Positions 2,730 to 19,335 of a stretch of 64,000 nucleotides of DNA are shown in pieces (positions within the stretch are counted from its first letter, which is position 1; the number at the start of each line of letters is the position of its first letter). Origin of the DNA: Natrinema halophilum (GTDB lineage Archaea; Halobacteriota; Halobacteria; Halobacteriales; Natrialbaceae); assembly GCF_013402815.2 (NCBI RefSeq), contig NZ_CP058601.1:3844001-3908000 (forward strand). Reading direction: 5' to 3'. The position numbers and the translations under genes were made by a program. The notes under the pieces are model-generated. The model was not told the DNA's origin. It worked only from the letters and a program-made list of their open reading frames with translations, and did no database searches.

Positions 2730-3971
2730 TTACTGGTTATCAAGGAACTCTTCGAGTTTAGCGGATTCACCAGCGTGCCAGCTTTTCCGAGGCCGGACCT
2801 TGACGGGGACGATAGTTTCGGCATCGTCGTTCATGGCGTAGGCGTAGCCCGGGGCTTTCGGAATTTGTTGCATATAGTGGCTGATGGTCTGGGCGTCGTG
2901 AAGTTCAGAGATTTTGTCTCCGACCGCGTCTGAGTCTTGGCCTGCGGTGAGACGGTGGATGATTAGGGTGTCACACTGGGAGAGGATCCTGTTGTCCAGA
3001 GCACCGGGTTGTTGGGTGGCCATGACGAGGGAGAGGCCGGGGCGGCGGCCTTGCCGAACCCATTCAACGAGCGGATCGGTGCTGGGCTCAGAATGACCAG
3101 ACGGTGCGAACAGATGCGCTTCATCGAGAAAGAGCCAGACAAGGGGAAAGTTGACTTCGGTGTGTTCGCCTTTGATTTTCTTAACTTCTTCGCGGCTGCG
3201 ATCGAAGCTCCGCTTGTTGTACATCTTCTTGACGAGAATGCCGGTGAGCATGGTGCGGACGTTCCAGGGCAGGGCACCGGCACCGCTGAGATCAAGGACG
3301 ACAAACTCCCCGCCTTCGACGATTTCCTCGATTTTGGATCCAGAGGAACTGAAAATACCCCAGTTCTTGGCTTTCTCTAGGCGACGGTTGAGTGCATCCT
3401 TGATGTTGGCGGACTCGGGGGATGCTTCGACCTTATCGAGTAGATCCATAATGCTGTAGTACTGGCCGAAGTCTTCCTCTGCCTGTTCGATGACCTGGGA
3501 GAGGAGACCGGCCTGTGCTTGGGTTTCATCGATATCAAGCAGGTAAAGCCAGTCCTCGACGGAGAGTTCAGAGGGATAGAGTTCGAACCCTTCGTGGAAG
3601 TACTGCTGGATTTCTTCGTACTGTTCTTCGAGACCGGCCGGGTAGTAGACTTTAACCGGGTACTCCCTGGGGGAGATGTCCCAGCCATCAAGGAGATCTG
3701 TGTCAGGCGTCTGAACCTGGAGGCTCCAGTAGATACCCATCGCGTCGATGACCAAGCCGTTCAGATTCTGTCGGGCCTGGGCGGGGAGGGTCATCAGTTC
3801 CTCCATCATAACACCGAGAGTGTGGGATTTCCCAGAGCCACGTTTCCCACAGACGGTAACCATATGTGGCTCATTAAGATCAAGACGGACCTGTTCACCG
3901 AGCTCGTCAGTACTGTCGAACTTGCGGCCAAGATAGGCTGACAGTTCTTCTTTATCCCCGCCAATGATCAT
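2730..3971 (-). CDS. HerA-like DNA-translocating ATPase
   Basis: This 413-aa P-loop ATPase has Walker A GKRGSGKSH at residues 42-50 and Walker B LVWLFLDEAH at 277-286 (D283/E284). It then has MATQQPGALDNRILSQCDT, the sensor and arginine-finger region typical of HerA/FtsK-clade motors. HerA proteins form hexamers that pump DNA and often partner with nucleases in defence systems. The N-terminal HAS-barrel of classical HerA is absent because the Walker A box lies only 41 residues from the start. The ATG overlaps the stop of the upstream 1285-aa ATPase gene in an ATGA junction, so the two are translationally coupled. It is the last gene of the leftward operon. I infer that it is the motor of the restriction or exclusion module. 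Confidence 0.85.
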   Translation of the reverse strand: MIIGGDKEELSAYLGRKFDSTDELGEQVRLDLNEPHMVTVCGKRGSGKSHTLGVMMEELMTLPAQARQNLNGLVIDAMGIYWSLQVQTPDTDLLDGWDISPREYPVKVYYPAGLEEQYEEIQQYFHEGFELYPSELSVEDWLYLLDIDETQAQAGLLSQVIEQAEEDFGQYYSIMDLLDKVEASPESANIKDALNRRLEKAKNWGIFSSSGSKIEEIVEGGEFVVLDLSGAGALPWNVRTMLTGILVKKMYNKRSFDRSREEVKKIKGEHTEVNFPLVWLFLDEAHLFAPSGHSEPSTDPLVEWVRQGRRPGLSLVMATQQPGALDNRILSQCDTLIIHRLTAGQDSDAVGDKISELHDAQTISHYMQQIPKAPGYAYAMNDDAETIVPVKVRPRKSWHAGESAKLEEFLDNQ

Positions 3972-6900
3972 GTCTCATCACCAGTGAGTTCAGCTTTCAC
4001 ACGTATCTTCAGCAGGGACTGTTTTAGTTCCTCGGCAGCAGTTGTGGATCCTTGTAACCCATCGATCACCTGCTGGAACTCGTCATCATCCAGTTCAGAG
4101 AACTTGTCTGAGATGCTGTCCTCGGTCGCGTCTTCGACCACATCTATTTCGATGTCGGGGTCGTATTTCCGGACAGTTTCTTCGAACTCGTCACCGTCGA
4201 AGGCTTCCTCGTCTAACTGATTTCGTGCGGTTTCCCACTGCTCCCAGAAGTCCTCATACTGAGTGTGATCGAAGCGGTGAGGTTCGGCTTCGAGTTCTGA
4301 TTCACAGCTTTCCAGATAGCCCTCTCCTCTCCGGATCCAGCTTGATTCGCCAGGGATTCGGTCAGCATAGTTTTCCAGTTCCTCCTTCGCCGCAGCGACG
4401 TTGTCCTGTTCCTCACTGATTCCGTCCCTGATCGCATCTGTGACGAATCTGATGTCATCATCGAGGGAGGCCTCGTCCTCGGTTGGATCGTAAGTGTCCA
4501 CCGGTGGGACGATGCTTTTCCGCTGTGTGCGGAGCATTTCGATCAAACGGTCGAGACGGATATCCCCGTCAAGATACTGTTCTAAGTCAGCAGCAACATC
4601 GGCTTCCTCGATGTTGCGTTCGACCTGGTGGGTTTCCCAGAAGTCGTTGATAGTGGTTATACACTCGATGCTGAGACCCTCAGATTGGAGATCAGGATCC
4701 GTTCCGAACCACTCAAGCTTTGTAGCCAATGCCTCCAGGTCGTCTTTCTTGGCCAAAATGGTCGCGGCTTTTTTTACCTGTGTGGCCAGGTGGTCCAAGT
4801 CATCAAGGACGAGGTACCGGAGTTCGGGATCGAGGTTACTGAGCGGGTGGATAGTGTTCGCATAGCTGGCGACAGCAGAATCTACGAAGACATCATTTGC
4901 CATAATCTCGCGTAATAATTCATCTGCGCCTTGATACTCGAAGTCCCAGGATGCATCGATATCGTTTTGTATGTCTTCTAACTCGGTCGCATCAGCGGTC
5001 TCGATGCTGTCATATGTGTCGTTCAAATCCTCAATCTGGCTGATATCTGTGTCGTCCTGTTTTGCCTGGTCGAGGATCGCTATTTTGATTCTACGGCCGA
5101 CCCGTTTGCGGACTTGGCGGCGCTGGGTCTCGATACGGACATCGGCCGGTATGATCGTCGTCTCGTTATCGTCTTCAAAGACCCAACTGTACTCATCTAC
5201 GTATTGGCCCAGGATTAACAGCAGGTAGACCATTGCCCGGGTGACGTTTTCGACTTCGGAGGTGCCAAAGATCAGCTCCAGAATCTCATCGAAATCAAGG
5301 CCATCCTCGTCGAGATGTTCCTCGATGGAATCCAAGACGTGGCTGTAACTGCTCAGGTGGGGGACGATGTCGTAGTCTCCATTGCTGCGTTCCTCGATGA
5401 AGGATTCATTATCCGCGAACTGTTCAACGATCGCGCGGAATTCGTCCCCGGATTCGCGGGAACGATTGACTCTGCCGAATGATTGGACATCGATGTGGGG
5501 GTGGTTCGCGCTCTCGAAGATGAGGTCCCCTTCCCGGTCAAGGTGTTTGATCCCGTAGACAAGATTGAGATAATCCTTCCCTGGGTAGGTCCCGGTGAAT
5601 CCAAGCTTCTCACAGGGATACGTGTCTGCGATGTTGGTCAGGTTACTGTCAACAGTCTGGATGAGGGAAAAACTCGTTGGATCGGCAGTCCGGTCACGGA
5701 TATCCTCCGTCAGGTCGTTCCCTGCAAGATAGGCTAGCGACAGCTTCAGGAACATCACATAGGCTTGGTAATCATCGTATCGTGGGAAATGTTCTTGGGT
5801 CGCTTCGATCAGGTTGTAGTACCCGGACTCTTCGTCGATGTGGAGTTCGATATTTCTGTTGAGGTTCGAAGCAATATCGTCCGTGACCATGCCTGCTTGC
5901 CCGTTCCGCTCGGTCACATAGTACTTGGCAGGCAGGTCGCCTTCTGTGTCCCGCCCCAGTCGGATGACAATGTGTAATGCATCATCATCGACCTCGGTAC
6001 TGAGCTGTTCCGGCAGGTCATCAGGTGCGACAGTGAACAAAACCTTGGAGGTATAATTGAGGTCTTGGTCTGTATCGAAGACGAGATACTGGCCCTGCTG
6101 GTTCTCGAAGGCAGTATCGGGGAACCGGTGATTGAGCATATCCGCCCAGAGCTGGATAAGATTGTTCTCCTCGTGGTCCTCCAAATGCAGGTCTGTGACG
6201 GCTTCACCAACCTGATCTGCGAGGGAGAGTTCGCCTTCATCTGCTGCTGTCCCGGTGAGTTCGTTCGGGTTGAATTCTAATCGCTCATTTTCAAGAGAGA
6301 AATACTCCGATCCTTGGGTGGCGACACCGATCAGGTCCTCGGCTTCGCTGTCATCTATCTGAAGTTCGATGGATCCAGCGATATTGGTTATCTGATCAGT
6401 GGTGAAATAGACCGGTCGTTCTGTCCGGTCGAGGATACCCGTCTTGGCGATTTCGCAGAGGATTCGGAGATCGATCCCGGACGCATCTGGGTAGTCTGCC
6501 TCGATGGTGGCTTCGATGCTGTCCTCTCCCGGCAGTTCATCGAGGTTGACGCGTTCGACGTTCCCCCGGAGCTGGTCACGGACTGCATCACCATGTTGAT
6601 ACAGGAAATCGAGATCAATCTGGCCCTCACCGTCCCAGTGGTCGAGGAACGAGATCAGGATGCGTTTGTAATCGCGGAAGGCACGGACAACGGTTTCGTC
6701 CAGTGTTTCGTCTTCGAACTTTTGGACGATACTGAGGGCGAATTCGAGAGTATCATCGGTGAACGGATAGACATAGCCATCTTCACCGGGTTCTGCGGAG
6801 GCGATAGTGTCGTACCAGTCACCCGCCTCTCCACCGCGGTCCGCGAGCAATGGGATGACGTAGAGCCGGTACAGGTTGGCGAAAAGCTCCTTTGTTTCCT

Positions 6901-7825
6901 CCTCAGAGTGATCGATGTTGTAGCTGATGTTCTCATCAATGCGGTCGGTGAGGTCCCGTGCAGCAGCTGGGAAGTTCTCCCTGAACTCATCGTGGGAGAC
7001 AGTGTTTGCGAATAAGATGTATGGCGGCGTGGTGAAATCATCAAACCCGGAGACGGTGTTCCGGATCATCTTCTGGACGATGGCTTTAAGCCGATAGTTC
7101 CCACCTGGGTCCACCCCTTGCCGCGTGATCTGTTCGAATTCGTCAATATAGAACGCCGGGTAGTGGTCCTCTCGCTCGCGGTAGTAGGTGGTGAACCACG
7201 CGATCGTTTGGTGCGCATCACCCGCTGTCAGTGACTTTGTGACGCGAGCAATGTCTTCGAGCGAGGACGGATCTTCGAAGATATCGATGAGGTCCTGACG
7301 ATGGTTCGGAGGGAGGTCGTCATCAAGATCCTCAAGTGTGAGATTGATCTTCCGATCGTTGAAAATAGCAAGGAGATCATCCTCATCGACAGACGAACTG
7401 TACTCGACCAGTGCAGTGAAGAGGGCGTGGAGGAACTCCGTCGGGGTATCATGTTGTTCAAGGCTGATCGTGAGACAGTCGATAGGTGTCCCGCCGTAGT
7501 GGAGCTGGTCAAACTCTCTGTCACCGTACTCTTGATCGTCCTGACAGAGGAGGGCGATGTTTTCCATCATCACCGTTTTACCAGAGCCATACGCTCCGTG
7601 TAGTATCGCCCCAGGCGTTTCCTGCTCTGCTAAGCCTTGTTGGATCCCCCGAAGGATCTGGGCTCGTTTCTCCGTTAGGATGAAATGGGTGCCTTCCTGA
7701 AGGAATTCCTCGAACTGGGGAAGGTCGTTCTCATCGGCGAGGCGTTGGCATTCTCGCCGGACGCGTTTTATCGTTTGACGGTCGAGAATGTTGACAACAT
7801 CGTCTTTTGCTTCCTCCAGTGTCAT
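3968..7825 (-). CDS. large P-loop ATPase, BrxC/PglY-like
   Basis: This protein is 1285 aa long. Walker A GAYGSGKT lies at residues 77-84 and Walker B AFYIDEFEQI around 224-233 (D228/E229). The rest is a long acidic helical region without further motifs I can name. The size, N-terminal ATPase placement and adjacency to a PglZ-like gene fit the BrxC/PglY family of BREX systems. BREX normally pairs this ATPase with PglZ and a PglX methylase, and no methylase is present here. Both ends overlap neighbours by ATGA (the 106-aa gene upstream, the HerA gene downstream), showing a tightly coupled operon. Alternatives are another STAND-like or KAP-like defence ATPase. I am confident of the ATPase, less so of BrxC orthology. 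Confidence 0.7.
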   Translation of the reverse strand: MTLEEAKDDVVNILDRQTIKRVRRECQRLADENDLPQFEEFLQEGTHFILTEKRAQILRGIQQGLAEQETPGAILHGAYGSGKTVMMENIALLCQDDQEYGDREFDQLHYGGTPIDCLTISLEQHDTPTEFLHALFTALVEYSSSVDEDDLLAIFNDRKINLTLEDLDDDLPPNHRQDLIDIFEDPSSLEDIARVTKSLTAGDAHQTIAWFTTYYREREDHYPAFYIDEFEQITRQGVDPGGNYRLKAIVQKMIRNTVSGFDDFTTPPYILFANTVSHDEFRENFPAAARDLTDRIDENISYNIDHSEEETKELFANLYRLYVIPLLADRGGEAGDWYDTIASAEPGEDGYVYPFTDDTLEFALSIVQKFEDETLDETVVRAFRDYKRILISFLDHWDGEGQIDLDFLYQHGDAVRDQLRGNVERVNLDELPGEDSIEATIEADYPDASGIDLRILCEIAKTGILDRTERPVYFTTDQITNIAGSIELQIDDSEAEDLIGVATQGSEYFSLENERLEFNPNELTGTAADEGELSLADQVGEAVTDLHLEDHEENNLIQLWADMLNHRFPDTAFENQQGQYLVFDTDQDLNYTSKVLFTVAPDDLPEQLSTEVDDDALHIVIRLGRDTEGDLPAKYYVTERNGQAGMVTDDIASNLNRNIELHIDEESGYYNLIEATQEHFPRYDDYQAYVMFLKLSLAYLAGNDLTEDIRDRTADPTSFSLIQTVDSNLTNIADTYPCEKLGFTGTYPGKDYLNLVYGIKHLDREGDLIFESANHPHIDVQSFGRVNRSRESGDEFRAIVEQFADNESFIEERSNGDYDIVPHLSSYSHVLDSIEEHLDEDGLDFDEILELIFGTSEVENVTRAMVYLLLILGQYVDEYSWVFEDDNETTIIPADVRIETQRRQVRKRVGRRIKIAILDQAKQDDTDISQIEDLNDTYDSIETADATELEDIQNDIDASWDFEYQGADELLREIMANDVFVDSAVASYANTIHPLSNLDPELRYLVLDDLDHLATQVKKAATILAKKDDLEALATKLEWFGTDPDLQSEGLSIECITTINDFWETHQVERNIEEADVAADLEQYLDGDIRLDRLIEMLRTQRKSIVPPVDTYDPTEDEASLDDDIRFVTDAIRDGISEEQDNVAAAKEELENYADRIPGESSWIRRGEGYLESCESELEAEPHRFDHTQYEDFWEQWETARNQLDEEAFDGDEFEETVRKYDPDIEIDVVEDATEDSISDKFSELDDDEFQQVIDGLQGSTTAAEELKQSLLKIRVKAELTGDET

Positions 7826-8147: not shown

Positions 8148-8906
8148 TTAGGTGGTAACGAGTTCAATGACGGTCTTGCCCTCGTAGCGGTCGGTTGCAG
8201 CCCGGTTCTCGTCCTGTAACTGTTGGAGGATACTCTCGACTTGTTGCTCACTCCACTTGAAATCCATTGTAAGGACGCGCTGGATTTCTGCTAGATCCAT
8301 CCGGTTCCCATGTTCGGCAAGGATATCCTCGACGATATCCGCATCCTCGCCTCGGAAGTACGTGTACTGAGCAGGGTCGATATGCCATCGTCCATCCTCT
8401 TCTACGACGATCTCAAAATCGCGGAGGAAACTCGCAATCGCTCCTGCAGTCACCTTGTTCCCGCTGATCGTGTCCTTCATCAACGTGTTGACGGTGTCCG
8501 CGAGGTCGGCCCCCATATCGTAATTGCCAGCCTGAACCTTCCGGTCAAGTTCCTGAAGGAGGGTGTGGAAGTAGGTGAAGTTGGTCCGTGATTTGCGTTC
8601 TAACAGGTGGAATGCTGCAACACGGAAGTCAGGGGCGTTCAGGAGCTTCAACCCTTCGTCGGTGAGTTCGATGTGGTCGTTATCCTGTTTGAGAATCTCG
8701 ATGGACCGGTTCTCGTCTTGAAGGGTGAATTTGAACCAACCGTCGATCGATTTGAAGAGTTTGGAGTTTCTGTCGCGGTTGATTGCCTCCATTTCGTCAC
8801 GGAGTTCGTCTTCGGTAAGCTCGCCGCGGAAGTGAACGATCTGGGCGAGCTTTTCGATGCCCTTGAGAAGGTCTTGTCGTCCAATACGAGGGATTGTTTT
8901 TGGCAT
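8148..8906 (-). CDS. hypothetical operon protein with winged-helix-like ends, 252 aa
   Basis: The family is not recognised. The N-terminus has a helix-rich segment (GRQDLLKGIEKLAQIVHFRGELTEDELRDEM) that looks like a winged-helix module. The C-terminus has a second one (NRMDLAEIQRVLTMDFKWSEQQVESILQQLQDENRA). The middle includes FTLQDENRSIEIL and an aromatic FHTLLQEL helix. It sits 9 bp downstream of the PglZ gene and 5 bp upstream of the 106-aa gene, so it is co-transcribed with the effector genes. A DNA-binding or adaptor role for the PglZ/ATPase complex is a reasonable inference. A relationship to the small BREX proteins would need a profile search. Confidence 0.6.
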   Translation of the reverse strand: MPKTIPRIGRQDLLKGIEKLAQIVHFRGELTEDELRDEMEAINRDRNSKLFKSIDGWFKFTLQDENRSIEILKQDNDHIELTDEGLKLLNAPDFRVAAFHLLERKSRTNFTYFHTLLQELDRKVQAGNYDMGADLADTVNTLMKDTISGNKVTAGAIASFLRDFEIVVEEDGRWHIDPAQYTYFRGEDADIVEDILAEHGNRMDLAEIQRVLTMDFKWSEQQVESILQQLQDENRAATDRYEGKTVIELVTT

Positions 8907-8915
8907 AAATATGGA

Positions 8916-11684
8916 TCACTCGTCTTCGTATATAAGCCGAAGCCCCGCCATCTCGCTGATCGATGTCCCGCCGTGGTAGCCGTGGTCGTGCCCACTCCTG
9001 TTCTTGATATCGTACCGGGAGAGCAGCCCGACATCAGGCAAATCGAAGATACCGTCACCGCGTGGCTGGTAAACATCGACACCGTCGAACTGCCGGAGAT
9101 CACTGAGCGAAGCATTATCGCTGTCTGCATGCCACCCGAAGACGAATTTAGAGCCTGACTGAAGATACTCGACTTTCTCAGTTACGTCCCGGAGTGCATC
9201 GTCACTGACATCGTTAGCATCCTCCTCAGTAAGCATCGCACGGATACGGTCCACCGGTGGGCCATTCTCATCGGTGGCCACAGTCACGAACTGGTGGTCG
9301 CTTCGATTCGTGAACTCTGCCTCGCGGAAATTGACGCGGTATGCGTGTTGTAGCGGGACGGTCTCTGTCAGCATCTGTTGGTTGAACTCGTATTCCGGGC
9401 GTTCGTTGAGAACCATTTCCATCTCATAACGGGTGAGTTTCCCGTGGTCTGAGATGACCTCGATGTCAATCGGTTCCTCAATGATTGTGTCTGTAGCTTC
9501 GCGCAGATCTGCGAGAAGGTTGTCGAGGAAGTTGCCAAGCGTATTATAGTAGTTCTCGAATTCTTCGAAGGAGAGCATCTCGTGGAGTATTTTGTCGAAG
9601 TCTTCCAAGTATAGGACGATTTGGGACCGTTGTGCTGCGCGCGCTTCCGGGTCCACATCGTCGGTGTTCAGGACGTGGTGGCGTTCGTTCAACGTGCTTT
9701 CGACTTCGTTTACGAAGCCTCTGCGGACTGCGCCCAGGTGATCAGCTTCGATGGATAGGTCAGAGGAGAACCGGATATCGGCGACTTGGTCTGCAAATCG
9801 TGAGATCCCGGAGGAATTAAGCTGCGGTCGCTGGATGAGATGAAAATTGTTCTCGGTGCGTTCATCGACGAAATCGAAAGCGTCGGGATCGTAGCTGCTG
9901 TGCTTGAGATTGAATATGTCGTCACCGTGCCGGGGTTGCCAGCTGTAGATACCCGTGGTCTCAGCGGGAAGCCCAGTGAGGATGGTCGAGATAGCGGAGG
10001 GTGTGTACGACGGCAAATTGGAGAAAGCAAGGTCCACATCGTCCGGTTCTGTGTTCAGGAAACCGAACTGGTTGAGAAGCAGGTAGTCGGTATAGCCGAC
10101 ACTATCGAGGATGACAGTAAGCTTGATCCTGCCGTCCTCTGGTGCCGTGAGCAGATCGGAGAGATGGAGCCACTCATCGTCGGAGACAATTTCGTCGTAC
10201 CGATCAACGACTTCAGCACAGTAGCTGTCGTACTTGTCGATCAACTCCTGTTGCAGGAGATCCGAGACCGGTTCCTCCTCCCGCGTGTCCGCGAGGAACG
10301 AGGCCCACTGGTCCAAGAAGTGAGGCAGCGTATCTAGCTCTACCTCCTGTGTCCGAATGTCCTCTGCGAGGTCTTCGGCCTCGCGTTCACGAAGTTCTTG
10401 TTTGCGTGCCTGGTTTAGTGCGGTCAGGTACCGGTAGGCGAGCAGGTCCTCCCGATCGTTCTCATATACAACGTGGAGGAACTTTTGGAAGATGTCGGCC
10501 CAGCGATCCTCCGGGAACGCTGCATTGACGAAGCGAGGGTGTTTGATGAGCGCGACTTCCGCGAGGAGTTGGAGAAGGCTATCAACTTTTTCAACGGTGT
10601 TGAGAGCTTGGTCTGGTCCGTAGTCCTCGATTTGATGGCTGTCGCTTGATAATTGGTCCCGTACAGTATTGACCAGATCGGTGAATTCGTCTTCGTCAAC
10701 GGTGTGAAACAGGATACCGAAGTGTTGGGTCAGGATCTCAGCGGCGTGTTCTGGTTCTTGGATATTGATTGCCGTGTCCTGTCCTGTGATCTCTTGGTAG
10801 CTCTCTTGGATGGTATCGATGACATCCCGGTCTAATCGGACGGTGGCAAGTTCGGTCAGGGTTGCATCGAACAGCCGCCGCTGGGCGAGCCATTTGGTAA
10901 TCAGAGTTCGATACAGGCGCTGAAGATCCGGGTCGAGATCTTGAATCTCGGCTGCGACAGGATATTTAGGCTCGTTTTGTGCAAATCTGTCGCCATACGT
11001 GGCGAGGAGCCGGGGCGTGTAGACGTTCTGTTGGGCAGTTGGTTCGAGGCTGTCAAACAGCTCGGTGTTGGGAATACCAATACTGTCGAGGAAGAACTCG
11101 CGGACAGCTGTCGGGACGGACGACAAGGTGTCGTAGGGGATGTAGAAGTCGTCAAGTTGGTCGTCAGTACTGGTCTGAATGTGTGTGGGATTCAGCTCAG
11201 CTCCTGTGGCTGCCGCGGTGAAAGCGCGCAGAGCGAACTCGGCAAGGTCATCGATGGTGCGCGGTTGTGGTTCTGTGCCAGCCCCGCGTTCGAAGGCACT
11301 ACGGATGGTTCTGGTCGGATCATCCAACTGAACACGTTCAAAATGAACGAACGATGTGCCGGGAATCTCTTGGTAGCCATCAACGAGAAACCGAGGACAG
11401 AAGAATACGACAGTTCCATCTCCGTCGTTGTTCACGAGGTAATCGATACCGGTGTAAATCGTCTCTTGGAACTCCCATTCATCGACCGGCATCGACAGGA
11501 CACGGACATCGTCACTATCAACAATAGCACTGAGTACCCGTTTATCAAAGGGCACCGGGAGGTCAGTCGGCACATAGAGGATCTTCCCCGTCCCATCCAT
11601 AATCGCATCCCGAGTTCCAGTAAGACGTTGGAACGCAGTGAAATCGAACGAATCCTCCAGATACTGTTCCAGGGCTTCCTTCAT
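8916..11684 (-). CDS. PglZ-like alkaline-phosphatase-superfamily protein
   Basis: This 922-aa protein carries a C-terminal PglZ domain of the alkaline phosphatase superfamily. The metal site and nucleophile regions are visible as VILDSVGYTD (D527), LPSYTPSAISTILTGLP (T561 as likely nucleophile position), EVISDHGK (D746, H747) and GYHGGTSISE (H904, E911). The approximately 500-residue N-terminal part is helical and acidic, as in other long PglZ proteins. PglZ is a hallmark of BREX phage-defence systems, where it works with the BrxC/PglY ATPase, found here two genes downstream. The start ATG is followed upstream by 292 bp before queC, so this gene may open its own transcript. A weak AT-rich element (GCATTAAGT) lies about 40 bp upstream. 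It is probably the enzymatic core of the effector half. Confidence 0.85.
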   Translation of the reverse strand: MKEALEQYLEDSFDFTAFQRLTGTRDAIMDGTGKILYVPTDLPVPFDKRVLSAIVDSDDVRVLSMPVDEWEFQETIYTGIDYLVNNDGDGTVVFFCPRFLVDGYQEIPGTSFVHFERVQLDDPTRTIRSAFERGAGTEPQPRTIDDLAEFALRAFTAAATGAELNPTHIQTSTDDQLDDFYIPYDTLSSVPTAVREFFLDSIGIPNTELFDSLEPTAQQNVYTPRLLATYGDRFAQNEPKYPVAAEIQDLDPDLQRLYRTLITKWLAQRRLFDATLTELATVRLDRDVIDTIQESYQEITGQDTAINIQEPEHAAEILTQHFGILFHTVDEDEFTDLVNTVRDQLSSDSHQIEDYGPDQALNTVEKVDSLLQLLAEVALIKHPRFVNAAFPEDRWADIFQKFLHVVYENDREDLLAYRYLTALNQARKQELREREAEDLAEDIRTQEVELDTLPHFLDQWASFLADTREEEPVSDLLQQELIDKYDSYCAEVVDRYDEIVSDDEWLHLSDLLTAPEDGRIKLTVILDSVGYTDYLLLNQFGFLNTEPDDVDLAFSNLPSYTPSAISTILTGLPAETTGIYSWQPRHGDDIFNLKHSSYDPDAFDFVDERTENNFHLIQRPQLNSSGISRFADQVADIRFSSDLSIEADHLGAVRRGFVNEVESTLNERHHVLNTDDVDPEARAAQRSQIVLYLEDFDKILHEMLSFEEFENYYNTLGNFLDNLLADLREATDTIIEEPIDIEVISDHGKLTRYEMEMVLNERPEYEFNQQMLTETVPLQHAYRVNFREAEFTNRSDHQFVTVATDENGPPVDRIRAMLTEEDANDVSDDALRDVTEKVEYLQSGSKFVFGWHADSDNASLSDLRQFDGVDVYQPRGDGIFDLPDVGLLSRYDIKNRSGHDHGYHGGTSISEMAGLRLIYEDE

Positions 11685-11976: not shown

Positions 11977-12687
11977 TCAGTCGCTGTAGACTGGCCGTTC
12001 CTTGTATTCAATCGGATCCTCAGTCCCCGCTTCTTGGAACGCTTTGAGTCTGTAGGCACACGCGTCACAGGTCCCACAGGCCGGAGATTCGTCCCGGTAA
12101 CAGCTCCACGTCAACTCGTATGGCACGTCAAGTTCGAGACCGCGTTCAGCAATATCCGTCTTGCTCCAATCGACAAACGGGGCCACTAGTTCGATCGATG
12201 TCTCCGGTTTCGTCCCAACGTTGATGACCTGCTGGAAAGCATCGAAGAACTCGGGTCTGCAGTCAGGATAACCCGAGTAATCCTCACTGTGTGCTCCAAT
12301 ATAGACTGTCTCACAGTCATTTGCTTCAGCGTAGGAGACTGCCATCGAGAGCAGGTTTGCGTTCCGGAATGGGACATAGCTGGACGGAACCTCATCACTG
12401 TCGAGGTCCACCTCGTTGACATCAATACTATCATCGGTCAGGCTGGAGGCACCGATCCGCGCCAAGTGGTCGGTCTCGATGTGGAGGAAGTCAGCGACAT
12501 CCATCCGTTCGGCAAGCTGGTGGGCACAGTCGAGTTCCTTGTTCTCGGTCTGCTGACCGTACGACGTGTGAAGGAAGTACAGGTTATGACCCCTGTATTT
12601 CGCCTCGAACGCTGCCGTCGCACTATCCATACCACCCGATACAAGAACAACAGCTCCATTCCGGTTTTCGTTAGTTGCAGTCGTCAT
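11977..12687 (-). CDS. queC: 7-cyano-7-deazaguanine (preQ0) synthase QueC
   Basis: QueC converts 7-carboxy-7-deazaguanine to preQ0 using ATP and ammonia. The 236-aa protein has the PP-loop SGGMDSATAAF near residue 17 and the C-terminal zinc cluster CYRDESPACGTCDACAYR with its four cysteines, so it looks catalytically complete. Length is usual for the family. It is the third gene of the queD-queE-queC run, 12 bp after queE. In Archaea preQ0 normally feeds archaeosine in tRNA. Here the genes lie divergent from two TGT/DpdA-like genes and beside PglZ/ATPase genes, which argues for a dedicated DNA-modification supply. Confidence 0.95.
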   Translation of the reverse strand: MTTATNENRNGAVVLVSGGMDSATAAFEAKYRGHNLYFLHTSYGQQTENKELDCAHQLAERMDVADFLHIETDHLARIGASSLTDDSIDVNEVDLDSDEVPSSYVPFRNANLLSMAVSYAEANDCETVYIGAHSEDYSGYPDCRPEFFDAFQQVINVGTKPETSIELVAPFVDWSKTDIAERGLELDVPYELTWSCYRDESPACGTCDACAYRLKAFQEAGTEDPIEYKERPVYSD

Positions 12688-12699
12688 TATTGACTATCT

Positions 12700-13482
12700 C
12701 TATGTTTCTGGTGCGTCGTTCCACAGATCGACGTGGAGCCGTGGCGTGTACTGGTAGCCATGCTTCAAGGCCATTTCTGCAGTCAATTCCCGCCTCTCGT
12801 TCAATCGTTCCCGTGTCGCCCCCTCTGGCATCAACAACACGTCCGAATCACGGATTACAGCATCTGTTGACGCCCTTAACCGATCAACAAGCTGGTTGAT
12901 ATCCGACACATCGTCCTGATCCATAGTGACGAACTTCAACTGGAACCCGTAGTCCTCGACCAAGTGAGATAGGGCATCTATGTCGATCCGTTGATTCTCG
13001 TGTCGGTCGGCCCATTGGCCGTCCTCTTTCGGGTCTTTCTCCGGGAGCGGTGTACTGCTTGCGAGTTTCGGACTGATACTCGCTAAATCGATCGATGCAT
13101 CACGGTAGATTGTGCCGTTGGTTTCGACGGTCGTGTGATACCCGGCGGTACTGAGCCTGTCCAGCAGCCGCACTGTCTCATCATGGATGAGCGGTTCACC
13201 GCCGGTCACCACTACGTGGTCTGCCTCATCATGGTCTTTTACCTCATCGACGATGGTGTCGAGGTCAAGCCAGGCATGGGTGGGCTCCCAACTGGTGTGG
13301 TAGGAATCACAGAACCAACACCGCAGATTGCAGCCACTCGTCCGAATGAAGACACTCGGCACACCGGCCAGTTTTCCCTCACCCTGTAACGAGTAGAACA
13401 ACTCGTTGATCGGTAGCGAACCGTCCGTTTCCACGTTATCAACGTCTCCATCGACAACGTCCGTATCAGCATTCACCGGCAT
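12700..13482 (-). CDS. queE: 7-carboxy-7-deazaguanine synthase QueE
   Basis: QueE is a radical SAM enzyme that rearranges 6-carboxy-tetrahydropterin to 7-carboxy-7-deazaguanine. The 260-aa protein shows FYSLQGEGKLAGVPSVFIR, then the [4Fe-4S] motif CNLRCWFC (CX3CX2C, as in QueE) and the SAM-binding GGEPL box about 55 residues later. The N-terminal 20 residues are an acidic extension. It lies 6 bp after queD and 12 bp before queC, so the three are co-transcribed. It is not RaSEA, the radical SAM partner of ArcS, because the QueE signature around the cysteines is clear. Confidence 0.95.
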   Translation of the reverse strand: MPVNADTDVVDGDVDNVETDGSLPINELFYSLQGEGKLAGVPSVFIRTSGCNLRCWFCDSYHTSWEPTHAWLDLDTIVDEVKDHDEADHVVVTGGEPLIHDETVRLLDRLSTAGYHTTVETNGTIYRDASIDLASISPKLASSTPLPEKDPKEDGQWADRHENQRIDIDALSHLVEDYGFQLKFVTMDQDDVSDINQLVDRLRASTDAVIRDSDVLLMPEGATRERLNERRELTAEMALKHGYQYTPRLHVDLWNDAPET

Positions 13483-13488
13483 ACGCTG

Positions 13489-13956
13489 TTATTGAGGGGC
13501 ACCAGCGGCTAGTTCACCGGTCTCCTGTACTTCAACAGTAACGTCGCTCACGCTATCGGGTAAGCCACGACGGAGACGCTGTTCGAGGACGAGGCTCATC
13601 ACTTCGGCTGTCGGTGGGTGATCCAAGACAACGACGGCATCACTGTCCCCGCTGGCGTCAAATGCCTCAATCAGTGGATCGCCCCGTTCAAGCAGGAAGC
13701 GATGGTCCCAGTCAGAGACAATATCGGTGATATCACCTTTGTCAACCACCCAACCGTCCTCGGTCAGGGTACCAGTCACTGAGACAGTGACCGAATAGTT
13801 GTGACCATGCGGGCGACTACACTTCCCATCGTGGTGCAGAATGCGGTGGCCTGTACTGATACGGATCGGCCGGTCCTGACCGACAGAGAGGGTCCGTTCA
13901 TCCTCTGTGAAATCGTGTGAGGCCAAAGAGTGTTCTTCGAGGGCACGTTGAGCCAT
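13489..13956 (-). CDS. queD: 6-carboxy-5,6,7,8-tetrahydropterin synthase QueD
   Basis: QueD makes 6-carboxy-tetrahydropterin from dihydroneopterin triphosphate, the first pathway step after GTP cyclohydrolase. The 155-aa protein has the zinc-binding histidines in STGHRILHHDGKCSRPHGHNYSV (H..., HxH), the WDHRFLL region and the C-terminal glutamate region VEVQETG. The gene is first in the leftward operon. A TATA-like TTTAAGTATT lies about 26 bp upstream of the ATG, so the transcript is probably leaderless. No GTP cyclohydrolase gene occurs in the window. That step must come from the chromosomal folate/archaeosine pathway. Confidence 0.93.
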   Translation of the reverse strand: MAQRALEEHSLASHDFTEDERTLSVGQDRPIRISTGHRILHHDGKCSRPHGHNYSVTVSVTGTLTEDGWVVDKGDITDIVSDWDHRFLLERGDPLIEAFDASGDSDAVVVLDHPPTAEVMSLVLEQRLRRGLPDSVSDVTVEVQETGELAAGAPQ

Positions 13957-14098: not shown

Positions 14099-16021
14099 AT
14101 GTCTGCATTCAGGACGCTCGCAAAAGATGAATATGGTCGTCGAGGCGTTATAGACACGCCTGCGGGCCAAATTCAGACGCCTGCGCTTCTCCCCGTTGCG
14201 AACCTCATTGGAGGAACTACGCCAAAATCAGGGGGAATCTGGCGGTACGCCCGCCGGTATCTCTTCGAGAGCGACAGCGTCCAGGGAATCATGTTTCAGA
14301 CGATGACGTTCCTGGACTACAATCTCACCCCGGATAACCTGGCGGACTGGCGTGAGAAGCCCCTCAAACAGCATTTCGAGGAGAGTGATGTAGAACCCGG
14401 GTTCAGCCAGCCACTATTTGTGGACTCCGGCGGGTTCAAGCTGATGAACTCGACCACGTTCGGCCAGCCACCGGAAGAAGGTGGCAGTGAGAATGACTGG
14501 GGTATCTACACGAATCCAGAAAGCATCTTGAAACTGCAGCTGGACTACGGGGCTGACATCATCGCTACACTGGACTTCCCGATTCCACAGAACCTGAACC
14601 AAGACGAAGCCACGGAACGAATGAAAAAGAGCATCGACAACGCAGTCGAGTGCCTGCAGATGCTCAATGACCCCGAACTGCTGGATGAATGGGATGTAGA
14701 TGAAACGCCGTCTGTCTACGTGGCGATTCACGGTCACAGCTACGAGGACGTTCACTGGTACGTTAGCCGGTTCCTAGACCGCGCAAATGAACTCGATGAA
14801 GCCTTCGAGGGTTTCGCACTCGGATCACTGGTCCCGCTCAGCAACTCTCCTGATGTCCTAGTAGACATTGTCCAGGGGGCGAAAGATGCGATACCCGAAG
14901 AACGGTACGACGATATAGCGCTCCACGTGTTCGGTATCAGCGGCCGTCTCTGCCCACTCCTCGCGTTGCTCGGTGTCGATACATTCGATTCAGCGAACTA
15001 TCTGAAAGCCGCCCGTAACAAGAGCTTCATCCATCCAGAGACGTGGAAACGCACGAAGCTGGATCAAATCGAGGACTGGGACAACTGGTGTGGCTGTAAG
15101 GCATGCCAGGATATTCATATCGATGATATGCGGCATGCCCTTTTGGAGTCCGACGTCAAGTACAAACCAATCGAAGGCGAGCATGGCACTCATTTCAAGA
15201 GTGAGTACTATGCCCAGATTGCTCACCACAACTTCGAACTTTACAGCCGTCAGATGCAGGACGTCCGCGATGCTATCGACAACGATGGACTGCTCGAACT
15301 GGTCGCTGACTTCGCCCAGGACAAAAACATTGTCGAGAAGGGATTGAAACGGGCACAGCTCCACAACCCGGAGCTCCGTGAACAGCTTGCTGACCTTGGC
15401 TACGAAGCACTTGTCGCCGGGCCGGACACAGAAACCTTCCAGACCAAACTGTCCAGCTTCTACGATGACATCGATGATGAACAGGAGGAGAAACGAACAA
15501 TCTCACTGAAACACGGTCCAAACGACTTCGATATTCTCCAGTACGACAGCTACCAGCCACCCAGTGATGCATCGGTACTGCTGATTCTGCCGTGCAGCCA
15601 AGAGAAGCCGTATTCTGACTCTCGAACACACCAGGCTGTCATCTCCCGACTCAAGGACTATGAGGACAGCTATCACAAGATTTCTCTCTCAGGACTGTAC
15701 GGACCTGTGCCCGAAGCACAGGAAACGGTGGAGCCTGTGATGAGCTACGAATACGTGCTCACCACTGCAGACGAGGACCAGGTTGACCTCGTTGCGAACC
15801 GGCTGGCCGCGTATCTGGACCGGTACGGTGAGCAGTTTGATCATATCCTCGCCTACACGACCAGTAAAGCCTACCGCCAAGCAATCGAGGAAGCCTTCTC
15901 CCGGTACGGCCGCGGTGAGATGTATCCGCGCGAGCCACGCGCTCTCCAACTGACCGAACACTTCCGGAACACCAACATCGATGAATTAGTTGAGCGGATT
16001 GATACAGCACTTGTCGAATAA
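14099..16021 (+). CDS. TGT/DpdA-like transglycosylase fused to an ArcS-type (DUF5591-like) domain
   Basis: The protein is 640 aa from the ATG at 14099. A TTG at 14063 would add 12 residues but conserved TGT sequence starts at MSAFRTLAKDEYGRRG. Residues 1-400 are a TGT barrel: FVDSGGFK (D109, general base), GVDTFDSANY (D294/D297, nucleophile region) and zinc ligands C331-x-C333-x2-C336 with H376/H377. Residues 480-640 carry LILPCSQEKPYSDSRTH (P498-H511). This matches the PC-X3-KPY-X2-S-X2-H motif of archaeosine synthase ArcS, which adds lysine to preQ0 in tRNA. I see no PUA domain, the tRNA-binding part of archaeal TGT and ArcS. I infer DNA as substrate from context: queDEC divergent, a second TGT downstream, and PglZ/ATPase genes. 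If so, the modified base could be preQ0 or an ArcS-type derivative of it. Confidence 0.85.
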   Translation: MSAFRTLAKDEYGRRGVIDTPAGQIQTPALLPVANLIGGTTPKSGGIWRYARRYLFESDSVQGIMFQTMTFLDYNLTPDNLADWREKPLKQHFEESDVEPGFSQPLFVDSGGFKLMNSTTFGQPPEEGGSENDWGIYTNPESILKLQLDYGADIIATLDFPIPQNLNQDEATERMKKSIDNAVECLQMLNDPELLDEWDVDETPSVYVAIHGHSYEDVHWYVSRFLDRANELDEAFEGFALGSLVPLSNSPDVLVDIVQGAKDAIPEERYDDIALHVFGISGRLCPLLALLGVDTFDSANYLKAARNKSFIHPETWKRTKLDQIEDWDNWCGCKACQDIHIDDMRHALLESDVKYKPIEGEHGTHFKSEYYAQIAHHNFELYSRQMQDVRDAIDNDGLLELVADFAQDKNIVEKGLKRAQLHNPELREQLADLGYEALVAGPDTETFQTKLSSFYDDIDDEQEEKRTISLKHGPNDFDILQYDSYQPPSDASVLLILPCSQEKPYSDSRTHQAVISRLKDYEDSYHKISLSGLYGPVPEAQETVEPVMSYEYVLTTADEDQVDLVANRLAAYLDRYGEQFDHILAYTTSKAYRQAIEEAFSRYGRGEMYPREPRALQLTEHFRNTNIDELVERIDTALVE

Positions 16022-16094: not shown

Positions 16095-16556
16095 ATGACG
16101 TCGCTACTCATTCAATCGTGTTCTGCGACCAAGGAAGCGGTGGATACACCGGTGCCTGCCCTTGATTTGTACGATGGTTACTTTTTCAGGATCATCAAAA
16201 AGGCAGTGCGCACGAACCGGTTTCAGCCCGGACTTGACATAACAATTATATCAGCCAAACATGGTGTTGTCGAACCTGACGACCACATTGGCTACTATGA
16301 TCAGGAGATGGACACAGAGCGGGCCAACGAATTGAATGACGAAATTATCGACGCTATCGCTAGCAAGGTTGTCGAACACGAGTACGAGAAAGTATGGGTC
16401 AATCTGGGCAAGGACTACATGCCCGCTGTAGATGGAATTGATGAAGCGGTCGATGTCCCGGTTCTCCATATCGAGGGTAGTGGTATCGGAATGAAAGGCA
16501 AACAACTGAAACACTTGGTGTCCAGCAGCCGCTCGATACCGACCCACGGAGATTAA
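16095..16556 (+). CDS. DUF6884/YaaA-like small protein
   Basis: This 153-aa protein has an N-terminal LIQSCSATK (C9, K13), then PALDLYDGYFF and ITIISAKHGVVEPDDHIGYYDQEM. That order of motifs is the DUF6884/YaaA-like pattern. The C-S-x-x-K box resembles the P-C-S-x-x-K-P-Y box of the ArcS-type domain in the gene just upstream, so a related deazaguanine-ligase or nitrile-processing role is possible. It lies between the two TGT-like genes, 73 bp after the first and 3 bp before the second. It is very likely part of the modification machinery. The biochemical role is unknown. Confidence 0.7.
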   Translation: MTSLLIQSCSATKEAVDTPVPALDLYDGYFFRIIKKAVRTNRFQPGLDITIISAKHGVVEPDDHIGYYDQEMDTERANELNDEIIDAIASKVVEHEYEKVWVNLGKDYMPAVDGIDEAVDVPVLHIEGSGIGMKGKQLKHLVSSSRSIPTHGD

Positions 16557-16559
16557 CAG

Positions 16560-17813
16560 ATGGTGTCGTTCGACGTCATCGCTGAGGCAGGGGAGACACG
16601 ACGAGGCCAGCTCCAGATCAACGACAGAACACTGGAGACCCCGCACCTGTTTCCTGTCGTCAACTTCTATGGAGGCGGCAACGAACCGGCCTTGTTCGGC
16701 GGCGGTATCCACAGGACGGTGAAGGAGTTTATGGTCAACCATCCGCCGACCACCGGTGGAACGGACTATAGCGACCTCTTCGGCGGCGTTATGACCTCTA
16801 TCTCTTCCCTGACGGATTACGGGATCAGGGAGAAGAAACTGGAGGAGTACCTCGATAACGAGATCCGTGAATGGGGCAAGTTCAGCGACTACGACGGTAT
16901 GATCTTCGCTGACTCAGGTGGATATAAAATCCTAAAACAGGGCGGCGAACTGGAGGGCGAGGACTTCACGAAGGATATCACCCAAGACAAGGCGTTGGAC
17001 ATGCAGTTGGATCTCGGGCCGGACATCGTCGTCAACCTCGATCATCCGATCCATCCAGACGACGAGTTCGAGGAGCGGATCGAGAAGATGGAAAAGACTG
17101 CGGTCAACGCTCGACAGCTCGCAAAACGTCGGGACGAAGTTGACGGCGCGTGTTACCTGACTGTCCACGGGTATTACGAGGCGATGCTGGAGCGATCGTT
17201 TGACGCGATCGAGAACGAACTGGATAAGCCAATCCCCGAAGTGTTCGATGGTATCGCGCTGGGAAGCCTCGTCCCACGAAAGGACAACGTCGAGGTTCTG
17301 ATTGAAGCAGTCTCTGACTGCCGACTGGAAATGCAGCAACGCGGATACAATGATCTTCCGCTGCACGTATTCGGCATTTCGGGGAATGCGATGCCGTTAC
17401 TTGTAGCGGTCGGGGCTGATACCTTCGATTCAGCCTCCTACCTCCACCAGGCAATAAACGGCAAGTACTGTGTGAATCTCTTCGAGACTGTGCCGGTAGA
17501 GGAAGCGGACTTCCACGCTTGTGACTGCCGGATCTGTAATGACGGACTCCACCGCGATCGGATGCGGAACAGACTGGATGACCTGTATCAGAAGGACATC
17601 TTGGGCTCCGTCGCAGCCCACAATCTGGCGATCCAACAAAGGGAGCTACGCCGGTTCCGTCAGTTGATCGCCGAAGCCGACGAAGACCAAATCGCTGCGT
17701 ATCTAGAAGAAGCCGTCAAGGATCAGAAGGGCTTCCGCAAGTTCGCCTACAAACTGATCAATGAACGAATCAAGCCATACTTCGACGACGATGGAGAGAC
17801 AAGCTATGCATAA
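16560..17813 (+). CDS. second TGT/DpdA-like transglycosylase
   Basis: This is a 417-aa stand-alone TGT barrel. FADSGGYK places the general base at D118, and GADTFDSASY gives the nucleophile region (D287/D290). Zinc ligands are C321, C323, C326 in HACDCRIC and H354 in AAHNL. All catalytic and zinc positions are present, so it looks active rather than a dead partner subunit. There is no PUA domain, unlike archaeal tRNA TGT. DpdA proteins, the DNA-acting members of this superfamily, exchange guanine for preQ0 in DNA. Two such genes side by side may form a heterodimer or handle different strands or sequence contexts. Its stop overlaps the start of the GHKL gene by 8 bp. Confidence 0.85.
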   Translation: MVSFDVIAEAGETRRGQLQINDRTLETPHLFPVVNFYGGGNEPALFGGGIHRTVKEFMVNHPPTTGGTDYSDLFGGVMTSISSLTDYGIREKKLEEYLDNEIREWGKFSDYDGMIFADSGGYKILKQGGELEGEDFTKDITQDKALDMQLDLGPDIVVNLDHPIHPDDEFEERIEKMEKTAVNARQLAKRRDEVDGACYLTVHGYYEAMLERSFDAIENELDKPIPEVFDGIALGSLVPRKDNVEVLIEAVSDCRLEMQQRGYNDLPLHVFGISGNAMPLLVAVGADTFDSASYLHQAINGKYCVNLFETVPVEEADFHACDCRICNDGLHRDRMRNRLDDLYQKDILGSVAAHNLAIQQRELRRFRQLIAEADEDQIAAYLEEAVKDQKGFRKFAYKLINERIKPYFDDDGETSYA

Positions 17814-19335
17814 GACACCGAAAGTTAACGAGGTCAACGAGTTCATCGAGATTGCAAGCGACTTCGAGGATCCGTTAGAAGTCATTCGAGAAGCACTGTC
17901 GAATTCCTACGACGCAGAGGCAACCTGGGTCGAAATTGAGATCAAACAAGATGACGAGGGAAGGAACACCCTCATCATCGAGGACGACGGCCACGGTATG
18001 GACGAACAGGACCTGGAATCGTTCTTCGACCTCGGCAACTCCAACAAGCACGACGCGATTGGGTACAAGGGACACGGAACCAAGATCTACTACAAGAGCG
18101 ACGAGATTCGTGTCGAGAGCGTGAAAGACGGTAACCACGTTGAGTCTGTGATGGAGCAGCCGTGGGAGACACTGAACAACCACGAACTACCAACCTACTC
18201 GGTTGATACGGAAGAGACAGATGAAACCTCTGGCACCCGGATCGAGGTTCACGGCTTCCGGGCAGGCCAAGGCTTCGATCCAGAACAGCTCACATACAAC
18301 AAAATCGAGCACTACATCAAGTGGAAGACAATCGGTGGCTCAACTGCTTGGCACTTCGATGATGACTTCCACGAATTCGATATTGAGGTCACGCTCTCAC
18401 CGCAAATCGACAATACGCGCAAGCCAATAGAGACGACCAACAAGCTAGAATTCCCCGATGAAAACCTCCATCCTGACGGTGAATTCGTTGCAGAGCGGAT
18501 GTGCAAGCATTTCCCACCGCGTGAGCTAACTGTCACGTTGGACGATGGCCGAGAGCTTACTATCGAAGTCGTGGGAATGGTCGGTGGAAAAGAGGCGCGT
18601 AATGAACTTCCGACTTATGGCAAGCACTCAGCCCAGTTCGGGATCTGGCTGGCGAAGGACCACATCAAGGTCGAACGGTACAACGATGCTATCGGTGCAG
18701 ACAACGAGTTCTTCCATTTCTTCTTCGTCGCAAACTGCCAGTCGCTCGAACTATCCGCCAATAGGGAAAAGATACGGAATAAATCAGGTGATGTCTATCA
18801 GGCCATCACGAACGAACTGGAACGGTTCATGACCAAGGTCTGCCAAGAAGAATGGTACAGAGACTACATCGCCCGCCGCAAACTCGAAGACAAGAAACGA
18901 AGCGTTCAATCGCAGGAAAGCTCACTCCAAGATCGCCTGGTGAAAACCAAAGAGCAGGGTGGGCTCTCACCATCGAATCCTGCCGAGGTCATCGCAGCGT
19001 TAGAACGGTACAGCGCTAATGGATCGCCAGAGACTGTTGAGATTGCGGACTTCCGGATGGACGAAGAGGTTAATGCCATCGTCAACACCGATGATGGATA
19101 TAAGAACGCAGCACTACAAGCCAAGCTCAGTGATTTCTTCGAAGATGAGACACCGCTGACTCACATAGACCGGTTCATCTGCTGGAAGGTTGGTGATCGG
19201 GATGCTTTGACCAAGATCGAGCGGGCCTCCTATCTCGGTGACCCCATCCGCTTTGATTTCAGCAACAACGAAGTGACGTATGGAGAGGAAGATAAGAAAA
19301 CAATCCCTGTTCTCGAATTAGTCGACAAAATGTAG
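17806..19335 (+). CDS. GHKL (Hsp90/MutL/MORC-like) ATPase
   Basis: The protein is 509 aa from the ATG at 17806, which overlaps the stop of the TGT gene. An upstream ATG at 17761 gives a non-conserved leader and is less likely. The Bergerat ATP fold is clear: N-box EALSNSYD (E29, N33, D36), G1 box EDDGHGMD (D61, G62, G64) and G2 box GYKGHGTK (86-93). The C-terminal half has a helical part with basic residues and a strand-rich end. GHKL ATPases act as nucleotide-gated clamps. MORC- and MutL-like members occur in many defence systems. Coupling to the TGT gene suggests it belongs to the modification arm or reads modification status. Its partner is unknown. Confidence 0.8.
   Translation: MHKTPKVNEVNEFIEIASDFEDPLEVIREALSNSYDAEATWVEIEIKQDDEGRNTLIIEDDGHGMDEQDLESFFDLGNSNKHDAIGYKGHGTKIYYKSDEIRVESVKDGNHVESVMEQPWETLNNHELPTYSVDTEETDETSGTRIEVHGFRAGQGFDPEQLTYNKIEHYIKWKTIGGSTAWHFDDDFHEFDIEVTLSPQIDNTRKPIETTNKLEFPDENLHPDGEFVAERMCKHFPPRELTVTLDDGRELTIEVVGMVGGKEARNELPTYGKHSAQFGIWLAKDHIKVERYNDAIGADNEFFHFFFVANCQSLELSANREKIRNKSGDVYQAITNELERFMTKVCQEEWYRDYIARRKLEDKKRSVQSQESSLQDRLVKTKEQGGLSPSNPAEVIAALERYSANGSPETVEIADFRMDEEVNAIVNTDDGYKNAALQAKLSDFFEDETPLTHIDRFICWKVGDRDALTKIERASYLGDPIRFDFSNNEVTYGEEDKKTIPVLELVDKM

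Follow-up and report, generated by a model that had tools for sequence, protein, structure and literature searches.

In a 64,000-nucleotide stretch of the 4.84-Mb genome of the haloarchaeon Natrinema halophilum (NZ_CP058601.1, positions 3,844,001 to 3,908,000; hereafter the window), the gene for a GHKL-family ATPase starts inside the end of the gene for TGT2, a transglycosylase (TGT) paralogue. Here we show that the two genes are adjacent in every surveyed haloarchaeal genome with a genuine TGT2, and that the ATPase ends in a domain lacking the E-D-ExK motif that the nuclease-like domain of its TGT-free relatives carries. We favour, with moderate confidence, the view that haloarchaea possess a Dpd-like DNA-modification machine in which the GHKL protein, a descendant of the paraMORC3 proteins whose nuclease has decayed, is the dedicated ATPase subunit and serves TGT2. 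The gene-level facts are firm: the obligate pairing, the junction, intact ATP and TGT sites, the missing nuclease motif, the exchange of restriction modules and a search that found no member of the DpdB family. The genes form a plus-strand operon in the order TGT1, DUF6884, TGT2, GHKL:

14102..16021, + strand: TGT1, a fusion of a TGT domain and an ArcS-type domain (DUF5591), 639 amino acids (Pfam TGT 1.4e-29, DUF5591 3.8e-18).
16095..16556, + strand: DUF6884 protein, DpdC-like, 153 amino acids (Pfam DUF6884 2.2e-13; PADLOC DpdC 4.2e-5).
16560..17813, + strand: TGT2, a TGT paralogue with catalytic Asp and Zn ligands, 417 amino acids (Pfam TGT 1.6e-27).
17793..17798, + strand: GGAGAG, candidate ribosome-binding site for GHKL within the TGT2 gene, 7 nt before the ATG (from the sequence).
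17806..17813, + strand: 8-bp overlap ATGCATAA, common to the TGT2 stop and the GHKL start (from the sequence; ATG at 17806, TAA at 17811-17813).
17806..19335, + strand: GHKL ATPase gene, paraMORC3-like and TGT-linked, 509 amino acids (Pfam HATPase_c_3 2.3e-14, HATPase_c 7.2e-10).

We searched 391 Halobacteria genomes for GHKL homologues and TGT2-family proteins, and retrieved the sequence surrounding each of the 43 non-self GHKL loci, which with the window gives 44 loci examined. GHKL homologues occur in 44 of the 391 genomes and TGT2-family matches also in 44, with 43 genomes common to both. Genuine TGT2 matches (>370 bits) are present in 43 genomes; the GHKL gene lies directly downstream of TGT2 in all 43, and a DUF6884 gene stands in front of TGT2 in the same 43. 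The two remaining genomes hold, respectively, a broken GHKL remnant without TGT2 but with QueC nearby (G039, locus L073) and a TGT1-like match of 124 bits without GHKL (G237). DUF6884, TGT2 and GHKL therefore occur together in 43 of the 44 loci (42 of the 43 non-self loci plus the window, the exception being G039). An earlier reading of the window, made from the sequence alone and hereafter the sequence-only reading, had made its proposal of a functional pair depend on the GHKL gene being kept in related clusters, as it is in 43/43 TGT2 genomes. Pairwise distances among the GHKL proteins correlate most strongly with those of TGT2 (r 0.95), followed by TGT1 (0.90), cluster c11 (0.78), DUF6884 (0.70) and clusters c3-c7 (0.51-0.75).

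The 8-bp overlap that the sequence-only reading described is confirmed, and the junction is tight wherever the pair occurs. From the TGT2 stop to the GHKL start, the distance is between -11 and +4 nt in all 43 loci (the window and 42 other Halobacteria loci), distributed as -11 (n=1), -8 (n=8), -4 (n=4), -1 (n=11), 0 (n=7), +1 (n=3), +2 (n=8) and +4 (n=1). Because this spacing is kept in 43/43 loci, the junction is not a matter of chance, and the constant adjacency rules out a chance pairing of the two genes. They overlap by at least 1 nt in 24 of the 43 loci, the exact 8-bp overlap being limited to the eight closest, and in most loci the TGT gene contains, within its 3′ end, a GGAGG-type site for GHKL. 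Starting from another in-frame ATG, at 17761, would lengthen the protein, but homologues start no more than a few residues from the equivalent of 17806. Balanced synthesis of TGT2 and GHKL from the overlap is plausible.

Outside Halobacteria no transglycosylase was found beside the GHKL relatives. A further scan, covering contigs of 84,980 species, yielded 63 loci with GHKL relatives. All 21 Halobacteria loci among them carry the trio (partly from the same genomes as the 391-genome survey), and the 42 other loci have no TGT match at E 0.001 within the DNA examined, in which some contigs span only 4-7 kb and a more distant TGT would escape detection. No neighbour recurs among these TGT-free relatives (the largest common neighbour cluster is found in 6 of 43 loci), which in this respect resemble the standalone paraMORC3 members without conserved neighbours described in the accessible part of PMC2292703. 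A plasmid collection contributed two haloarchaeal loci with the trio and one Caballeronia relative with no TGT match at E 0.001. We also considered a viral or phage source for the pair and rejected it: a phage collection returned only three weak MutL-like matches, and the viral contigs one GHKL relative (L140), with no TGT among its listed open reading frames as judged by eye. In one locus (L070:1246-1608), an additional GHKL copy is represented by a C-terminal piece (58-65% identity) beside a HerA gene, probably a remnant of decay.

The GHKL protein is a four-part chain:

17806..18270, + strand: GHKL ATP-binding domain, residues 1-155, limits approximate (Pfam match 25-112; AlphaFold2 secondary structure).
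18271..18789, + strand: S5/transducer-like domain, residues 156-328, approximate (structure match of model residues 6-364 to MORC3/MORC2/MutL).
18790..18963, + strand: long helices (329-347, 349-384), probable coil linker, residues 329-386 (AlphaFold2 model).
18979..19332, + strand: degenerate PD-(D/E)XK-like nuclease domain, residues 392-509 (alignment; bacterial counterpart modelled).

Its AlphaFold2 model, built from an alignment of 52 sequences, has a mean pLDDT of 82.3. The ATP-site residues E29, N33, D36, D60, G62, G64, G86, K88, G89, H90, G91 and T92, together with K284, are identical in all 52 aligned relatives. Across model residues 6-364 the best structural match, and the closest solved fold, is MORC3 (Z 21.5, root-mean-square deviation 3.5 over 302 residues), followed closely by MORC2, MutL, Hsp90 (Z about 19) and topoisomerase VI, which bears out the MORC/MutL-like clamp ATPase proposed by the sequence-only reading. 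The likeness to MORC2/3/4 is one of fold: identity is 14%, the window protein has no zinc-finger Pfam match and its C-terminal domain is different. Nor is it a plain MutL of mismatch repair, as the NCBIfam MutL model scores 36.4 bits (cut-off 180) and only over residues 21-74, or a BbrUII/HgiDII restriction enzyme, the NCBIfam model of which matches the GHKL part alone (43.2 bits, cut-off 550).

The window protein has intact ATP-binding motifs in an N-terminal GHKL domain, with an S5/transducer domain after it, as in paraMORC3, a group described as GHKL plus S5 plus a restriction-fold nuclease with an E-D-ExK motif, some of whose members stand alone (Iyer, Abhiman and Aravind 2008, PMC2292703, as far as its accessible text goes). 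VcSduA, a type I-D Shedu protein of paraMORC3 organisation, is reported to be a single-gene phage defence that requires both its ATPase and its nuclease residues (PMC12137116, in the portion available). The window protein shares with both the succession of GHKL, S5/transducer and C-terminal restriction-fold domains, and differs in that neither it nor any of its 42 TGT-linked orthologues keeps the ExK residues, and in having a TGT as partner.

That C-terminal domain is a small alpha/beta unit that follows the two long helices in the model. The TGT-free relatives, from bacteria and two other archaea, are likewise GHKL-transducer proteins with a C-terminal nuclease-like domain, and E-D-ExK is present in all 32 that were aligned. 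These come from the 42 TGT-free contig loci; L074-L076, L081, L085, L126, L128, L131, L132 and L134-L139 were left out of this alignment (A2), the reasons including incomplete sequence, an unclear start, strong divergence and near identity to another entry. Among the 43 TGT-linked proteins, by contrast with these relatives, the first E is found in 0/43, the D in 1/43, and the E and K of ExK in 0/43 each. The window protein has P392, N423, A436 and Q438 at the positions of E, D, E and K, and the ExK E and K positions hold several different residues across the group. Mean identity of the C-terminal domain is 41% against 68-70% for the rest of the protein in the TGT-linked group, and 49% against 53-56% in the TGT-free group; measured against the remainder of the protein, divergence of the domain is quicker in the TGT-linked proteins. 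It is still folded in the model (residues 421-509, pLDDT mostly 79-91), and E394, W460 and D464 are among its invariant residues.

Modelled alone, the bacterial counterpart reaches a pLDDT of 91.7, and its structural ranking, in which all scores are low, is led by EndoMS (Z 5.7), FokI (4.3), MspJI (3.8) and McrBC (3.7), with NucC (3.2) sixth behind an acetyl-CoA carboxylase entry. EndoMS, FokI, MspJI, McrBC and NucC are PD-(D/E)XK enzymes. Foldseek gave no match for this domain at E 0.001, a PDB sequence search with its profile found nothing convincing, and hhalign of the isolated haloarchaeal and bacterial C-terminal profiles returned E 0.0024 with a probability of 12%. In Pfam, seven TGT-free relatives and one TGT-linked protein had no match up to E 1 to DUF4263, the Shedu nuclease domain attributed to VcSduA.

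In the tree, the haloarchaeal group forms one side of a branch supported at 100/100, on a long stem, so a single recruitment of GHKL in haloarchaea is the simplest history, with a rooting that is unsure given long branches and the outlier L133. Since E-D-ExK has been lost, the TGT-linked GHKL proteins are, on sequence grounds, best classed as derived from the nuclease-bearing paraMORC3 proteins and not as members of them. One relative has an unusual setting: on a Pacearchaeota contig (L099:7750-13233), a QueC-family gene, an N6/N4 DNA methylase, a GHKL gene that retains E-D-ExK, a BsaWI-type restriction enzyme and a second N6/N4 methylase follow one another, a QueC homologue beside a restriction–modification operon being odd in itself. 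With the GHKL gene placed between methylase and BsaWI-type enzyme, relatives of the window protein thus do partner DNA-modification enzymes.

The genes upstream of GHKL, and three that diverge from them on the opposite strand, make up the modification side of the locus:

13489..13956, - strand: QueD-like, 6-carboxytetrahydropterin synthase (PDB 6-pyruvoyl/6-carboxy tetrahydropterin synthases, best 3e-5).
12700..13482, - strand: QueE, 7-carboxy-7-deazaguanine synthase (PDB 6nhl 8.2e-19).
11977..12687, - strand: QueC, preQ0 synthase (PADLOC QueC 2.8e-31).

TGT2 matches the archaeosine TGT structure 1iq8 (7.6e-20) over residues 107-374, that is, in its catalytic part only, and a Pfam scan found no second domain such as the tRNA-binding PUA. 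Its D118, D290, C321/C323/C326 (CxCxxC, 321-326) and H354, which we take to be the catalytic aspartates and zinc ligands, are kept in 42/42. Matches to DpdA models are weak (PADLOC 2.2e-4, NCBIfam 4.9e-5). A separate canonical TGT (293.7 bits) is encoded elsewhere in the genome, so TGT2 is additional to it. In TGT1, which matches the NCBIfam ArcS model at 1.3e-31 (best stretch 483-598), the equivalent aspartates, C330, C335 and H376, along with C498, K502, P503, Y504 and S507, presumably the functional ArcS-type residues, are kept in 32/32; the ArcS motif is spaced PCx3KPYx2Sx2H. To judge by this domain, the product of TGT1 may be deoxyarchaeosine or a lysine adduct in place of dADG. TGT1 is present in 38 of the 43 TGT2-bearing genomes and GHKL in all 43, so TGT1 is dispensable and GHKL is not. 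The loci L062 and L065-L068 have no TGT1 in the genome at E 1e-40, and mostly carry two DUF6884 copies and a conserved 310-amino-acid gene. QueC, QueD and QueE are all within reach in 13 of the 44 loci.

The ATPase of bacterial Dpd insertion is DpdB according to the accessible part of PMC12839542, and the bacterial survey in PMC11888242, as far as its text could be seen, took dpdAB as required. A search for the DndB/DpdB family (PF14072) gave no match in the 43 genomes that carry the trio and was positive in 2 of 14 control genomes. The haloarchaeal loci resemble the Dpd islands (dpdA-K) in their TGT homologue, their DUF6884/DpdC-like protein, their preQ0 genes and, often, a DpdJ-like helicase module, and differ from them in having GHKL instead of DpdB/DndB (0/43) and usually two TGTs, one of them with a fused ArcS-type domain.

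What surrounds this core is variable. Within about 20 kb per locus (30 kb for the window), the 44 loci carry, in overlapping sets, a DpdJ-like helicase (27), a GmrSD/SspE-like protein (13), a PglZ/HerA module (5) or a helicase-nuclease (4), with none seen in 4. In the window the divergent strand continues past QueC with the following genes:

8916..11684, - strand: PglZ-like alkaline-phosphatase-superfamily protein, 922 amino acids, restriction side, tentative label (Pfam Phosphodiest 2.3e-6).
8148..8906, - strand: 252-amino-acid protein, family unassigned, which accompanies the PglZ-like gene in both L069 and L095 as well.
3968..7825, - strand: 1285-amino-acid P-loop protein, tentatively BrxC-like from position and size (Pfam AAA_22 3.1e-4, below cut-off; PADLOC SspC 0.0015).
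2730..3971, - strand: HerA-like translocase ATPase (Pfam DUF87 1.4e-13; PADLOC mad8 1.4e-21).

PADLOC, PDB and NCBIfam searches lent no support to the PglZ label (no PADLOC PglZ match) or to the BrxC label. The complete four-gene module is found in the window and L069 of the 44 loci, and also in L095; it is optional to the trio. In these three, a tentatively PglZ-like protein, a large P-loop ATPase, HerA and a TGT share one locus, a grouping that would resemble the BREX-Related Capture (BRC) systems, which combine PglZ, BrxC, HerA and sometimes a TGT (PMC12839542, accessible part). The available text of that paper reports no DpdB or DpdC there and makes no mention of GHKL, whereas the window has a DpdC-like protein and GHKL; moreover, the 1285-amino-acid protein has no Pfam DUF6079 match at E 0.001, and no STAND or GNAT genes were found among the genes scanned. 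In several haloarchaea (L065:322-2811 and the cluster c11 loci), an 829-amino-acid GmrSD/Orf5/SspE-like protein adjoins the GHKL-TGT2 core and could possibly be a single-protein effector that reads a 7-deazaguanine mark. Because the restriction genes vary while the trio stays, GHKL travels with the modification core, and we reject, as the main reading, the view that it belongs to one restriction module.

The best available mechanism is that GHKL loads TGT2 on DNA and fills the place of DpdB, which fits the gap left by that family (found in 0/43 genomes). The target would then be DNA, and GHKL would act as an ATPase and a clamp in complex with TGT2. ATP binding would close a GHKL dimer around DNA; clamp and retained C-terminal domain would hold or position TGT2 on the duplex; a guanine would be flipped out and swapped for preQ0 supplied by QueDEC; and ATP hydrolysis would let the complex go. 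DUF6884 and/or the ArcS-type domain of TGT1 would complete the base, and the nearby restriction module, whichever its type, would attack unmarked DNA. A catalytically blank nuclease domain would be a natural DNA- or partner-binding element. We suggest more tentatively, with rather less than even confidence, that it helps to choose or hold the site at which TGT2 writes, which would turn the core into an ATP-driven writer of 7-deazaguanine, possibly with sequence specificity, able to work with several restriction modules of unrelated kinds in haloarchaea.

Several considerations weigh against GHKL as an ATPase subunit of modification. DNA modification, ATP hydrolysis and a GHKL-TGT2 complex are all things that we infer. 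Linked neighbours are inherited jointly, and correlated distances are no proof of interaction; DUF6884, equally adjacent, correlates less, yet is short and noisy. The homology of the C-terminal domain leans on its continuity with the conserved N-terminal part, as the isolated profiles match weakly, and the bacterial domain, too, is only weakly similar to nuclease folds (best Z 5.7; Foldseek null). Certain Dpd clusters are reported to tolerate the lack of DpdB (PMC12839542, accessible part), so a replacement is not required. Finally, some published GHKL clamps (paraMORC3/VcSduA) also act on the restriction side, and a restriction module could be the partner.

This last point leads to the strongest rival, which we regard as unlikely yet deserving of attention: GHKL as a self/non-self sensor that scans DNA and tells the restriction machinery whether it is modified, co-transcribed with TGT2 only since sensor and mark must match. 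It would accord with the proposal, in the accessible part of PMC2292703, that GHKL proteins in restriction–modification systems loop DNA between recognition and cleavage sites, and with the reported role of the nearest published relative type as a restriction effector (PMC12137116, portion available). It is less likely because GHKL is common to unrelated restriction modules: the same protein sits with at least four of them and would need to signal to all, and it is coupled to TGT2 in 43/43 loci and to no particular restriction gene. We consider it improbable that GHKL never touches DNA and acts instead as an assembly factor of the Hsp90 kind, folding or dimerising TGT2, or TGT1 with TGT2; its Hsp90-family score near that of MORC and its translational coupling would suit a chaperone and client, but its relatives bear a nuclease-like domain, and the Pacearchaeota relative among two DNA methylases and a BsaWI-type enzyme points to a DNA substrate. 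A shade less probable again is that TGT1 and TGT2 modify RNA in an accessory tRNA-modification locus helped by GHKL, as the ArcS-type domain, which elsewhere belongs to the archaeosine modification of tRNA, might suggest; against this stand the separate canonical TGT, loci full of restriction-type genes, the DpdC-like gene in 43/44 loci and the patchy presence of the system (43/391 genomes). The least probable alternative, a C-terminal domain still active as a nuclease through other residues in an effector restrained by the mark, would suit its predicted fold and invariant positions but sits poorly with the various replacements of the ExK E and K across all 43 proteins and the domain's faster relative divergence.

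With GHKL as the partner of TGT2 still the favoured reading, the sequence-only reading holds in its core, a clamp ATPase obligately associated with a TGT; it missed the degenerate nuclease domain, the kinship with paraMORC3 and the interchangeable restriction modules. We found no description of a GHKL-TGT pair in the open-licence PMC literature, seen mostly as search listings: the word 'transglycosylase' is absent from PMC2292703, and the accessible part of PMC6884629, which covers phages and archaeal viruses, does not mention GHKL.

Downstream of the cluster, the window encodes a 321-amino-acid protein (20583-21548) weakly like Csm3/RAMP (PADLOC 0.0025; NCBIfam TIGR03986 0.026); in L032 the GHKL gene is followed by relatives of this protein (90%) and of its 203-amino-acid neighbour (78%). 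A phage-type integrase (24115-25092, Pfam) and a second, recombinase-like open reading frame (26257-26874, by eye) would be in keeping with an island of mobile or defence genes.

The pair bears on the question of how DNA transglycosylases gain access to guanines buried in the duplex and why an ATPase is needed for it. If our reading is true, a GHKL partner in DpdB's place would provide a second, structurally well understood class of ATPase for DNA transglycosylation, and haloarchaea amenable to genetics would allow the question to be tested. The protein would also exemplify cleanly how a defence nuclease can lose its active site and join the apparatus of self-marking. The loci further show a single modification core working alongside restriction modules that can be exchanged.

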